Positions 13,087-17,856 of a DNA stretch of 64,000 nt are shown piece by piece. Each line of letters begins with the position of its first letter. Position 1 is the first letter of the stretch. Source of the stretch: Archangium violaceum (GTDB lineage Bacteria > Myxococcota > Myxococcia > Myxococcales > Myxococcaceae); contig NZ_CP069338.1 of the NCBI RefSeq assembly GCF_016859125.1, forward strand, positions 5,767,501 to 5,831,500, written 5' to 3'. Made by a program: the position numbers and the translations under genes. The notes under the pieces are model-generated. The model ran no database searches, was not told the origin of the DNA, and was given only the letters and a program-made list of their open reading frames with translations.

Positions 13087-14760
13087 ATGTCAATTCCTCC
13101 TTTCAGATCGCGGCTCGCGGGCCTCGTGCTCGCCTCGCTTTTCGTCTCGCTCATGTCCTGCGGAGGTGGTGACAAGAACCCACCAGGAGGAAATGACACC
13201 CAGTGCGGCGACGGCGTGAAGCAGGACACGGAGGCCTGTGACGACGGCAACGCGACGAGCGGCGATGGTTGTACGGCGCTCTGCAACGAGGTCGAGCCGG
13301 GTTGGGCGTGCGTGGAGCCCGGCCAGGCCTGCACGCAGGGGCTCGATTGCGGCAACGGTCTCGTGAGCGTGGGCGAGACCTGCGACGACCGGAACAAGAC
13401 CGACGGCGATGGTTGCTCCGCCGTATGCGTCACGGAGCCCGGCTGGGCCTGCCTGCCGACCGGCGGTCGCTGCTGGGCCGCCGCGTGTGGTGACTCGTTC
13501 ATCGCGGGTGACGAGGACTGCGATGACGGCAACGCGCAGGAGGGAGACGGCTGCGGTGCCACGTGCCGCCTCGAGTCCGGGTACAAGTGCGAGCAGCCCG
13601 GTCAGCCCTGCACGCCCATCGTCTGTGGTGACAAGGTCGTCGAGGGGACCGAGCAGTGCGATGACGGCAACCACGACATGGGTGATGGGTGCTCGCCCCT
13701 GTGCCAGCGGGAGCCCCGGTGCTCCAACGGCACCTGCCAGTCCGTGTGCGGGGATGGCGTGATGCTCCCCGGTGACACCACCGAGCAGTGCGACGACGGG
13801 AACACCCGTGCCAATGACGGCTGCTCGCCGACGTGTCAGCTCGAGGCGGGCTTCACCTGCAAGCTCATCGAGAGCGCTCCGCCGCCGACCGTGGAGATCC
13901 CCATCGTCTACCGCGACTTCATCGGCTTCAACCAGTCGGGGCACGTCGACTTCGAGAACGCCAACGGCTCGGAGAAGGGCATCGTCGCGGCAACCCTGGG
14001 CTCGGATGGCAAGCCCGTCTACGCGAAGGAGGGCGTCAGCTCCAACACCACCCACGGCAGGGCCGCGTTCGATCAGTGGTACCGGGATACGCCGGGCGTC
14101 AACAAGACGGTGGTGGGCACGCTGACGCTCGACCGTCAGGACAATGGTTCCTACCTCTTCAGGGACCAGACCTTCTTCGAGCTCGACAACGCGGGCTGGG
14201 TGGCCGAGGGCAAGGAGCAGCCGGGCAAGGACAGCAGCGGAGCCCCCCACAACTTCAGCTTCACGAGCGAGGCCCGCTACTGGTTCGAGTACAAGGGCAC
14301 CGAGGTGCTCACCTTCCTCGGAGATGACGACGTCTGGGTGTTCATCAACGGTCGCCTGGCGCTCGATCTCGGGGGCGTGCATTCGGCGGAGACGGGGACC
14401 ATCACCCTCTCCGAGAGGGCCGCCGAGCTCGGCCTGACGAAGGGGAAGATCTACGAGGTCGTCGTGTTCCAGGCCGAGCGCCACACCCTGGCGTCCTCGT
14501 ACCAGCTCACGCTCAACAACTTCGTCACGCGCCGCAGCGAGTGCGTGTCCGTCTGCGGCAACGGCAACGTGGACGAGGGCGAGCAGTGCGATGATGGCGT
14601 GAACGCCGGAGGCTATGGCGGCCAGTGCGCTCCGGGCTGTGTGTTCGCTCCCCGCTGCGGCGACAAGGTCTACCACCCGGACCACGGCGAGGAGTGCGAC
14701 GACGGGAACAACACCAGCAACGACGGCTGCAGCGCGACCTGCAAGCTCGAGATTCGCTGA
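13087..14760 (+). CDS. Lipoprotein with DUF4215 Cys-rich repeats and a fibro-slime domain
   Basis: A 557-residue surface lipoprotein; signal with lipobox SLMSC, then five Cys-rich repeats of the form CGDG..CDDGN....DGC...C (DUF4215, the myxobacterial Cys-rich repeat). Residues about 270-480 are a fibro-slime domain (IVYRDFIGFNQSGHVDFEN; FLGDDDVWVFINGRLALDLGGVH), a PA14-like carbohydrate-binding fold first seen in slime-mould proteins. Two more DUF4215 repeats close the protein. Probably involved in cell-surface adhesion or matrix. It stands alone, 185 bp after the polyamine operon; that gap shows no gene. A hairpin follows the stop. Confidence 0.9.
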   Translation: MSIPPFRSRLAGLVLASLFVSLMSCGGGDKNPPGGNDTQCGDGVKQDTEACDDGNATSGDGCTALCNEVEPGWACVEPGQACTQGLDCGNGLVSVGETCDDRNKTDGDGCSAVCVTEPGWACLPTGGRCWAAACGDSFIAGDEDCDDGNAQEGDGCGATCRLESGYKCEQPGQPCTPIVCGDKVVEGTEQCDDGNHDMGDGCSPLCQREPRCSNGTCQSVCGDGVMLPGDTTEQCDDGNTRANDGCSPTCQLEAGFTCKLIESAPPPTVEIPIVYRDFIGFNQSGHVDFENANGSEKGIVAATLGSDGKPVYAKEGVSSNTTHGRAAFDQWYRDTPGVNKTVVGTLTLDRQDNGSYLFRDQTFFELDNAGWVAEGKEQPGKDSSGAPHNFSFTSEARYWFEYKGTEVLTFLGDDDVWVFINGRLALDLGGVHSAETGTITLSERAAELGLTKGKIYEVVVFQAERHTLASSYQLTLNNFVTRRSECVSVCGNGNVDEGEQCDDGVNAGGYGGQCAPGCVFAPRCGDKVYHPDHGEECDDGNNTSNDGCSATCKLEIR

Positions 14761-16212: not shown

Positions 16213-16410
16213 TGGATTCCCCCGAAGAAGAGCCGGGACGCCACTTCTGGGGATGGGCCTAGCACTCCCACGGGCTGATGGGCCAGCGCCGCGTCACCTC
16301 ATGCCCTTCTCGGGGCCCGGAGGGACGTTGGCCCGTCATCTTCTTGGAAGGTGGGCATTCGAGAGAGCTCGCGCGGGAAGAGATTCGCGTCCAGCGGCGT
16401 TGACGGCTGG

Positions 16411-17856
16411 ATGAGCCAGGCCCGGAATGGTCGTGCGGAGTGGTTCGAGTTGTCGGAGGAGGGATGGAGGCGCTCCAATCGCGCCCGGCCGCTCGGTCAG
16501 CTCGTTCGTGAAGCGCTGCAGAACGCGTTCGATCAGAACGCGAGTCGGGTGAGGGTGCGTCTGGCCGAGGACGAGGTCCGCATCGAGGACGATGCGCCCG
16601 CGGGACTGGCGCGTGACGAGTTCGCCTTCACCGTCTTCCTCGGGGAGAAGGACACGCCCCCCACGTGGCGAGGGCGCAAGGGCCGTGGCCTGAAGGAGAT
16701 GATCGCCGCGAGCGACCACGCCGAGGTGGAGACGGTGGGGCGCACGCTCGTCTTCGATCACACCGGGCGGCACGTGAAGCCCAACACGCGTCTGGTGGGC
16801 ACGTGCCTGCGGCTCTTCCGTCGCACGAGTGTCAGCGAGCGCGAGGAGGCCGTCGGGTTGCTGCGCCTCACCATCCCACCGCCCGGGGTCGAGCTGATCA
16901 TCAATGGCCGCACGGTGCGGACTCCGCGGGTCAAGGAGTCGCTGGAGGACTGCGTGCTGGAGACGGTGGAGCTACACCGCGGAGTGGAGCGGTACGTCGA
17001 GCGCGCCACCCGGGTGGACCTCTACCATCCGCGCCCCGGTGAGACGCCGCACCTCTTCGAGCTGGGCCTGCCGGTGGAGCCGCACCACCTCCCGTGGCAC
17101 GTCGACGTGCAGCAGCGCATTCCGCTGGCGGCCGAGCGCGATGCCGCGAGAGATGCCTACAAGCGCACGCTGGCGGCCATCCTCCTCGAGTCGCTGGCGC
17201 CCGAGCTGAACCGTCAGGAGCTGTCGGGCGCATGGGTGACGGAGGTCCTCTCGCACTTCACCCTCAGCGAGGACGCGCTCGAGGCCTACGTGGCGAAGGT
17301 GCTGCCGCCGCGCGCGGTGCTGTCGGTGGATGCGCGGACGGATGACCGGGCGCGCCAGCTCGGGGCGAAGGTGGTGGACCTGCGGGGGATGCCGTTCACG
17401 GCGCTGGAGCAGCTCGAGACGATCGTCGAGTCCGCGGACGCGTACGTGGAGCGGATGGAGGGCCCACCGCGTGACGTCCTGGTGACCCCCGGGCCCCGCG
17501 CCGAGCGCTTCGTGGGCATGGTGCGCTGCCTCTCGCGAGAGCTCATCGGGCGGGAAGTGCGCGTGGAGTTCTTCGAGCGCAAGGTGCGCGACCCGAGCGC
17601 CCACGTGGACGCGGAGTACGACCGCGAGCGCCGCGTGCTGCGCGTGAACATGCGGGGGCAGGTGCGGCTGGATGATCCGCTGGCGCCGCAGACACTGGGC
17701 ATCGTCCTGCATGAGCTGGCGCACGAGGCGGGCGACGAGCACGACTTCGCCTTCATCGACAAGCTGGAGAGCTTCGCCGGCAGGGCGCTGCGCTGTCTGG
17801 TGGATCGGCCCGACCTGCTCGCGCCCTATGCGAGCCCGAAGAAGCGGGTGGGTTGA
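16411..17856 (+). CDS. GHKL-ATPase-like protein with C-terminal HExxHxxGxxH metallopeptidase motif
   Basis: A 481-residue protein without signal peptide. ATG 16411 (MSQARNGRAEWF) is preferred; an in-frame ATG 60 bp upstream adds a non-conserved basic tail. Residues about 28-110 match a GHKL ATP-binding fold: N-box-like LVREALQNAFDQNA, G1-like IEDDAPAG and G2-like WRGRKGRGLKEM. Near the C-terminus, GIVLHELAHEAGDEHDF contains His434, Glu435, His438, Gly441 and His444, a full metzincin-style zinc motif. The combination of an ATPase-like sensor and a protease-like end in one chain is unusual. The middle (residues 150-400) is not recognised. Each half is supported by motifs only; activity is not shown. 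It stands alone, flanked by repeats downstream. Confidence 0.75.
   Translation: MSQARNGRAEWFELSEEGWRRSNRARPLGQLVREALQNAFDQNASRVRVRLAEDEVRIEDDAPAGLARDEFAFTVFLGEKDTPPTWRGRKGRGLKEMIAASDHAEVETVGRTLVFDHTGRHVKPNTRLVGTCLRLFRRTSVSEREEAVGLLRLTIPPPGVELIINGRTVRTPRVKESLEDCVLETVELHRGVERYVERATRVDLYHPRPGETPHLFELGLPVEPHHLPWHVDVQQRIPLAAERDAARDAYKRTLAAILLESLAPELNRQELSGAWVTEVLSHFTLSEDALEAYVAKVLPPRAVLSVDARTDDRARQLGAKVVDLRGMPFTALEQLETIVESADAYVERMEGPPRDVLVTPGPRAERFVGMVRCLSRELIGREVRVEFFERKVRDPSAHVDAEYDRERRVLRVNMRGQVRLDDPLAPQTLGIVLHELAHEAGDEHDFAFIDKLESFAGRALRCLVDRPDLLAPYASPKKRVG

Follow-up and report, generated by a model that had tools for sequence, protein, structure and literature searches.

A gene of the myxobacterium Archangium violaceum encodes a protein in which a GHKL ATPase module and a small zincin, i.e., a protease fold, are predicted to lie within one chain of 481 amino acids. 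This GHKL–zincin fusion is no one-off but instead is conserved and widespread, over phages, plasmids, and myxobacterial chromosomes, with the catalytic residues of both modules conserved as well. The reading toward which we lean, if by no great amount, is that of an ATP-gated metalloprotease, that is, of a dimeric clamp which would present a captured protein to the protease that it itself carries. Among the matches listed from the open-access literature, and to the extent of the text that those sources made available, no description of such a fusion was found.

The gene and its motifs

The ‘window’ is used here to mean the whole stretch of DNA that was analyzed, which is 64,000 nucleotides in length. 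The gene and its features, all found on the + strand, are as follows:

16411..17856, +, complete gene (GHKL ATPase, transducer, linker, and zincin), 481 codons plus stop
16441..17220, +, predicted GHKL ATPase domain and transducer, residues ~11-270, with Foldseek and VIA matches to TRAP1, topoisomerase II, MutL, and MORC2
16510..16533, +, N-box EALQNAFD, residues 34-41 (E34 in 88/90 aligned sequences, with Asp in the other 2; N38 and D41 in 90/90)
16588..16605, +, G1 box DDAPAG, residues 60-65 (D61 in 84/90, P63 in 87/90, G65 in 90/90)
16669..16695, +, G2 box RGRKGRGLK, residues 87-95 (G88, G93, and K95, all in 90/90)
17110..17139, +, transducer loop QQRIPLAAER (Q235, K or R at 236, and R243, each in 90/90)
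17221..17463, +, linker, helical and alpha/beta by the secondary structure of the model, residues 271-351
17464..17820, +, predicted zincin protease domain, residues 352-470 (to Wss1, Z 8.5 and rmsd 2.8 with 103 residues aligned)
17710..17742, +, zinc motif HELAHEAGDEH (H434, E435, H438, H444; conservation, in rows reaching the site, is given below)

The start, at 16411, matches an ATG in 11 aligned relatives, with the nearest named relatives being those of Archangium, L001 (88% identity) and L002 (86%). Just ahead of the gene (16260-16410), the window copy has a rearranged or incomplete version of an upstream stretch of ~70-95 bp that accompanies the gene in most relatives, and it lacks the GGAGAG which precedes the ATG in L001, L143, and L144.

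A first-pass annotation of this DNA had taken HELAHEAGDEH to fit the pattern HExxHxxGxxH, which is borne out at residues 434-444. The looser HExxHx5H occurs a single time across the window’s six frames and arose 13 times when the 481-aa protein was shuffled 20,000 times, while the full HExxHxxGxxH arose in none of those shuffles. A chance origin of the motif is rejected, given these counts along with conservation of the ligands among aligned relatives.

Conservation is described here from a 90-row alignment, one which includes the window protein and near copies but is without L046, L082 (same contig as L019), and the sixth plasmid (H6). The residues G18, N38, D41, G65, G88, G93, K95, F115, G130, E217, G219, P221, Q235, and R243 are invariant over all 90 rows. 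Counting rows that reach the zincin site, H434 is kept in 86/88, E435 in 87/88, H438 in 88/88, and H444 in 86/87. Homologues retaining the motifs of both modules, which the annotation had thought worth looking for, thus do exist, with N38, D41, G88, G93, and K95 in 90/90 and HExxH in 86 of the 88 rows reaching the zincin; that homologues keep the zinc ligands stands as well, save for two exceptions, L062 and L074, which are the two lacking HExxH. The literal HExxHx5H spacing is seen in 78/90 sequences. Twelve lack that literal spacing: two are truncated, two more (L062 and L074) are missing ligands, and in the remaining eight HExxH is retained and the third His is placed by alignment. Thinning at 85% identity yields a 68-row set in which every row has H438, with H434, E435, and H444 each kept in at least 90%. 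A further set, A6, was made without L062 and L074, and zinc-ligand invariance within it is therefore by construction.

A predicted GHKL ATPase with transducer

AlphaFold2, supplied with 68 rows, models the protein with a mean pLDDT of 91.1 and pTM of 0.78, with low values limited to residues 1-8 and 75-79, and both folds, i.e., the GHKL ATPase and the zincin, are seen in this model, as the annotation had anticipated. Foldseek comparison of the whole model with the PDB returns TRAP1 (E 5.5e-12), MutL (3.2e-7), and MORC2 (5.6e-7), and VIA-align scores TRAP1, topoisomerase II, MORC2, and MutL at Z 14-16, superposing ~240-320 residues at an rmsd of 4-6; for full-length Hsp90-type rows the superposition is poorer (rmsd 10-14). 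The N-terminal portion, as modeled, is thus a TRAP1/MutL/topoisomerase-like GHKL ATPase plus transducer. The annotation had located a GHKL ATPase within the N-terminal third of the chain; the fold itself is supported, but the module, inclusive of its transducer, instead reaches to about residue 270.

From a sequence perspective these similarities are fainter, with the single-sequence match to HATPase_c (E 0.0038) falling below cut-off and a whole-family profile matching PDB sequences weakly on both halves (MutL 0.02, WLM 0.047). The catalytic Glu and the Mg-binding Asn of the N-box are retained, as would be consistent with ATP binding and hydrolysis. In the transducer loop, Q235, R236, and R243 perhaps represent a gamma-phosphate sensor, presumably one like the QTK of type II topoisomerases. 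The G1 box is less typical in that Pro stands at the first Gly position of DxGxG in 87/90 sequences, with two aligned Picosynechococcus members carrying RDNGSG there.

A predicted small zincin, and whether it is a metzincin

Residues 352-481, folded alone, yield a pLDDT of 92.8. Foldseek places this domain nearest abylysin (E 0.011), selecase (0.011), and Wss1 (0.025, at probability 1.00), with no match to the domain at E <0.001. VIA-align gives Z of 8.5, 8.1, and 7.6 for Wss1, 7.4 for abylysin, and 6.3 for 6mdw, where rows within 1 Z are tied, where Z <8 may represent a common arrangement, and where just two PDB chains reach Z 8. The entry 6mdw, titled ‘Mechanism of protease dependent DPC repair’, we take to be SPRTN. 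The domain, as modeled, is then a small zincin nearest in fold to Wss1 and the minigluzincins, and because of those ties and that possible commonality of arrangement the label is kept to ‘Wss1/minigluzincin type’. Among predicted viral proteins the best fold match is A0A1B1ITP9, of 399 aa, which is unnamed (E 5.9e-26). By single sequence the match to Pfam’s WLM has an E of 0.12, that is, 12.9 bits versus a cut-off of 26, and the best relative’s WLM profile match has an E of 1.8e-5.

The annotation had also described the zinc motif as ‘metzincin-style’. That a zincin domain is present is supported, but the metzincin label is doubtful and is not adopted. The motif Gly, though kept in the window protein and in 12/12 myxobacterial orthologues read, is present in just 12 of the 78 sequences possessing HExxHx5H and so is no family feature; within the window protein’s own sequence, where a Met-turn was looked for, no Met follows H444; and metzincins score below Wss1 and minigluzincins in fold comparison. 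The metzincin myroilysin, which shares HExxHxxGxxH with the window protein, nevertheless comes first, weakly, when the domain’s sequence profile is compared with the PDB (E 0.0027, followed by a WLM protease at 0.008 and Wss1 and proabylysin at 0.015), and is matched by the whole-chain profile as well (E 0.043), with Peptidase_M10 matched by 1/68 members (E 0.063). PMC4559962 describes the Wss1 fold as metzincin-like while being most similar to that of minigluzincins.

Matches to library models

None of the libraries searched (Pfam, NCBIfam, PHROGs, PADLOC) supplies a strong whole-chain model. At an E of 0.1, the Pfam models matching among 68 members are HATPase_c_3 (60), HATPase_c (41), SACS (19), and WLM (6), and more rarely YgjP-like (4), SprT-like (1), and the just-noted Peptidase_M10 (1). 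NCBIfam’s sacsin N-terminal ATP-binding model is matched by 12/12 members of a first set (best E 4.2e-8), with the window protein reaching 23.8 bits against a cut-off of 50. With PHROGs, phrog_6077 is matched in 25/68 and phrog_6203 in 21/68 (best E 5e-8), both of them of unknown function, the match in the window protein spanning residues 32-69. PADLOC’s TmtA models match up to 9/12 members (best E 3.7e-7).

A number of identities were considered and set aside. Membership in a PADLOC defence family is one, as the matches are to TmtA alone and in the window protein cover residues 30-106 of a 1486-position model (E 0.0022); the papers listed for ‘TmtA’ were unrelated ones. Shedu membership is another, DUF4263 not being among the 21 Pfam families matched (E 0.1, 68 members). 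With rIIA it is the GHKL part alone which matches, and this to one T4 sequence (hhalign probability 20, 141 columns). PDB matches of the single sequence to Vpu look like noise.

Distribution

Searching with the single sequence, genome contigs supplied 4 loci, two of them from MAGs at 47-49% identity. Matches were found as well in at least 14 of 195 Myxococcota genomes, 13 of which are full length, inclusive of the window’s own; these 13 genomes, among which are L001 and L002, represent one family and three genera. That search also yielded a relative in one 485-kb uncultured phage and relatives in six plasmid records (Bosea, Rhodovastum, Methylibium, and three of Picosynechococcus). A profile, A3, built without L052, L091, and L092 and also without database proteins and rows >85% identical, matched at least 44 of 193 Myxococcota genomes. 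Its 13 long matches are to the same 13 genomes, and the remaining listed matches cover part of the ATPase domain, except for that of G166, which covers the zincin region. An alignment search of IMG/VR gave 120 relatives, the best 80 of which were kept, and in 76 of those 80 loci the ORF is complete, at 466-521 aa; of the other four, L052, L091, and L092 are truncated by contig ends and L046 gave no complete ORF. This distribution is a lower bound, with genome contigs scanned by single sequence, and the balance of viruses to hosts within it is biased, with profile searches covering the viral collection plus Myxococcota.

In a tree of 87 rows (without L052, L091, and L092; quick search, SH-aLRT support, midpoint root), which carries a long-branch warning, the myxobacterial copy shares a group with Picosynechococcus and the MAGs, one that is separate from the phage clade. 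As long branches may meet in such a tree, no direction of transfer between phages and myxobacteria is claimed, and a phage origin of the myxobacterial copy is not adopted.

Among the myxobacteria, 12 equal-length sequences (with L017, of 486 aa, left out) yield a median dN/dS of 0.15 over 66 pairs, which is to say that the gene appears to be under purifying selection, with no sign of rapid evolution. Over ~6 kb to each side, 12 of the 13 myxobacterial loci (G090 being left out) display five flanking contexts, each confined to one subclade. The window’s flanks are common to no relative, save for 0.6 kb at 70% identity (L144) and 59 bases (L001), and the window’s BamA-like neighbor, named by eye, is elsewhere in relatives, ~1 Mb from the gene in G065. 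Also found in the window, at 13087-14760, is a protein with repeated CGDG...CDDGN segments and, as read by eye, an apparent fibro-slime-type region. Relative to G061, G062, and G064 the dS of the window’s gene is 0.42-0.52 versus 0.225-0.241 for mutL, while relative to genus g7 the gene is 86-89% identical and mutL 76-77%. Over 78 pairs the ratio of gene to mutL dS has a median of 1.02 (0.59-2.34), the distances correlating at a Spearman of 0.51. These comparisons suggest that the gene may have been transferred, or have moved, within the myxobacterial family, with uneven rates as the alternative.

Genomic setting in phages and plasmids

Subtracting 13 near copies or broken loci from the 80 leaves 67 phage loci, and in these no neighbor cluster, by ORF calls and BLAST clustering, is found in more than 6/67. 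The idea of a fixed phage operon partner is rejected on that basis. Of ten large phage neighbors chosen for Pfam comparison, three had no match and seven did (DNA polymerase A, SNF2 and ResIII helicases, an AAA ATPase, a C5 DNA methylase, DUF932, and DUF4419), i.e., five of the seven are DNA-related or AAA enzymes. The setting is not, however, purely one of early genes, as clusters that by eye are portal-like and terminase-like lie ~4.5 kb from the gene in 3 and 2 of the 67 loci, respectively, and a zincin-less relative in Vibrio phage K396 is found among tail genes.

On plasmids, a gene for a DisA-type diadenylate cyclase is directly upstream in 3/3 of those from Picosynechococcus, with CHAT-domain genes near, and it is possible that these are second-messenger conflict loci:

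L023:7407-9563, Picosynechococcus DisA-type/GHKL–zincin locus
L024:7388-9539, Picosynechococcus DisA-type/GHKL–zincin locus
L183:4387-6536, Picosynechococcus DisA-type/GHKL–zincin locus

The Rhodovastum plasmid carries a SIR2-HerA anti-phage pair ~3 kb upstream of the gene.

Two further families, A4 and A5, adjoin the gene in some phage loci:

L039:4085-5401, A4, second GHKL–zincin family (GHKL motifs plus C-terminal HExxH)
L035:3504-4883, A4, as above
L080:861-2168, A4, as above
L041:8319-9746, A5, third family (GHKL-like with EExxH)
L044:7241-8680, A5, as above
L058:7765-9210, A5, as above
L043:4445-5950, A5, as above

The three A4 sequences align with the main family over 385 columns, from N-box to zincin (hhalign probability 90, E 1.5e-6), and the fusion can thus be viewed as a recurrent design. 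Matches to A4 number 110 among phage records, with 80% of the query covered in one of these. Of five relatives from isolated phages that were read, four (from a Pseudomonas, two Vibrio, and a Xanthomonas phage) end before any zincin, which means that the ATPase module can do without a protease, while that of Moorella phage MTATph1 carries HETLH. One A4 relative is annotated as ‘RIIA lysis inhibitor’, and an A4 member matches phrog_6077 strongly (E 3e-64). The four A5 sequences have, by eye, G1- and G2-like boxes that precede the N-box, an order which circular permutation of a GHKL domain would produce, and a C-terminus that is degenerate but zincin-like, with EExxH replacing HExxH. The A5 alignment to the main family is not convincing (hhalign probability 3.8), and the A5 member of L058 matches phrog_8203, of unknown function. 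It thus seems that this ATPase module can be paired with a protease that is intact, with one that is altered, or with none at all.

A proposed mechanism and its alternatives

MutL, MORC, Hsp90, and type II topoisomerases dimerize via their GHKL domains upon ATP binding, and GHKL clamps of this type often handle DNA. By the gated-protease reading, binding of ATP, as the motifs would allow, leads two copies of the 481-aa protein to pair through their GHKL domains. Closure of that dimer, as judged from fold relatives, would then have the transducer and linker clamp a protein substrate, with closure either bringing that substrate to the C-terminal Wss1/minigluzincin-like protease or instead unlocking the latter. 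The zincin, presumably with zinc bound given its intact ligands and Glu, would then cut what has been captured, and ATP would be hydrolyzed. The likeliest substrates, by analogy, would be proteins on DNA, since GHKL clamps often handle DNA and since the nearest protease fold serves in DNA–protein crosslink removal. More tentatively, and as a suggestion that we would not press, there may exist a large and undescribed class of ‘clamp proteases’ in which GHKL gating serves to capture a protein, probably a DNA-bound one, for cutting by a built-in Wss1-like protease. Running against the gated-protease reading are the Pro that replaces the first G1 Gly in 87/90, the loss of zinc ligands in L062 and L074, and the absence of a zincin from four of the five isolated-phage relatives of A4. 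Further points against it are the EExxH of A5, the weak Foldseek E-values of the zincin domain (best 0.011), the small number of PDB chains, two, that reach Z 8 with that domain, the weak profile matches to PDB sequences on both halves, and the want of a fixed partner gene.

From a different perspective, the protein might serve phages and plasmids in counter-defence or as an effector against competitors. The GHKL portion would then sense a system of the host, or an invader, and what the protease destroys would be a restriction or defence protein of the host or, in the case of the myxobacterium, an invader’s protein. That relatives are common in viral contigs (120 places) and present on plasmids (6 records) speaks for this, though with the search balance biased as indicated, and the directly preceding DisA-type cyclase and nearby CHAT genes in 3/3 Picosynechococcus plasmids, the five different contexts in myxobacteria, and the TmtA matches of up to 9/12 members are in keeping with it too. 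The TmtA match in the window protein is confined, however, to residues 30-106, no partner gene is seen in more than 6/67 phage loci, and in myxobacteria it is purifying selection rather than rapid evolution that is seen. There is precedent in that the available text of PMC7824862 calls GHKL rIIA proteins, which have a variable C-terminus, counter-defence factors and suggests that SprT-like and ArdC-like zincins of jumbo phages cut host proteins, while ArdC, which binds ssDNA and has a metalloprotease domain, is described in PMC7213743 as overcoming restriction. On this evidence we view a counter-defence role as unlikely, though as well short of remote.

Some relatives are without, or have lost, the protease site, and Foldseek’s top matches are to Hsp90-type TRAP1 while the sacsin model matches all 12 members compared, so one may ask whether the protein is instead an Hsp90- or sacsin-like chaperone, or a DNA clamp, with its zincin serving for structure or binding and having scant protease activity, if any. 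Were it just a scaffold there would be no need of E435, kept in 87/88, nor of three His ligands that are nearly always present, and we consider this a poor bet. That the protein is a maturation protease, which during assembly would cut itself or a protein of the phage or plasmid, with the myxobacterial copy a relic, strikes us as very improbable: the myxobacterial copy is under apparent purifying selection and outside of the phage clade, and the seven chosen neighbors with a Pfam match are DNA-related or AAA enzymes, DUF932, and DUF4419. It would fit, on the other hand, with the portal-like and terminase-like clusters ~4.5 kb off in 3 and 2 of 67 loci, with the K396 relative’s place among tail genes, and with the suggestion, in PMC7824862, that a zincin conserved among group 1 jumbo phages has a part in virion maturation. 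In favor of the gated-protease reading are the two predicted folds, the retention of both sets of catalytic residues, a chain length and domain order that hardly vary (466-521 aa in 76/80 viral loci), the alignment of A4 with the main family, the dN/dS of 0.15 in myxobacteria, the DNA enzymes among the ten chosen phage neighbors, and the precedent of VcSduA, described below.

Known systems and significance

The present protein resembles Wss1/WLM, SPRTN, and the minigluzincins (abylysin, jannalysin, selecase) in its small zincin fold and in possessing HExxH plus a third His, and it resembles MutL, MORC2, topoisomerase II, and TRAP1 in its ATPase plus transducer fold. We know of no GHKL ATPase in chains of the former, nor of a protease domain carried by any of the latter. 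With Wss1 the ATPase, Cdc48, is a separate partner (PMC4559962) rather than, as here with GHKL, part of the same chain, and Cdc48-binding SHP and VIM motifs along with a regulatory Cys are said, in that same paper, to be conserved in WLM proteins.

Shedu’s VcSduA is similar in having an N-terminal GHKL ATPase, a clamp-like middle, and a C-terminal effector in one chain, with the effector there a PD-(D/E)xK nuclease and here a zincin; mutants of its ATPase site and of its nuclease site each abolish defence, and control of the nuclease by GHKL is hypothesized by the authors (PMC12137116). Phage rIIA likewise is a phage protein with an N-terminal GHKL ATPase, described as GHKL combined with a C-terminal domain that varies, and assigned to counter-defence (PMC7824862), but T4 rIIA is of 725 aa, has no HExxH, and matches only over its GHKL part. 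GHKL ATPases of the paraMORC type are fused to HEPN domains in restriction contexts (PMC3710099), and SprT-like proteins are reported in mycobacteriophages (PMC12363180). Both phrog_6077, which matches main-family members weakly, and phrog_8203 are phage GHKL families. Chains consisting of GHKL plus an effector, such as VcSduA and rIIA, thus are already known, with the present protein differing in having a zincin as its effector.

Bacterial ATP-dependent proteolysis normally is accomplished by AAA+ machines, i.e., Clp, Lon, FtsH, and HslUV. A GHKL clamp-protease within one small chain, if that indeed is what this protein is, would represent a different coupling of ATP to proteolysis and, in a single chain, would give prokaryotes a counterpart to the Cdc48–Wss1 pair of eukaryotes. 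The family is common in viral contigs yet is without a strong model in the libraries searched. From its study one might learn how phages remove or disable host proteins bound to DNA, and the family could serve as a compact model for crosslink proteases.
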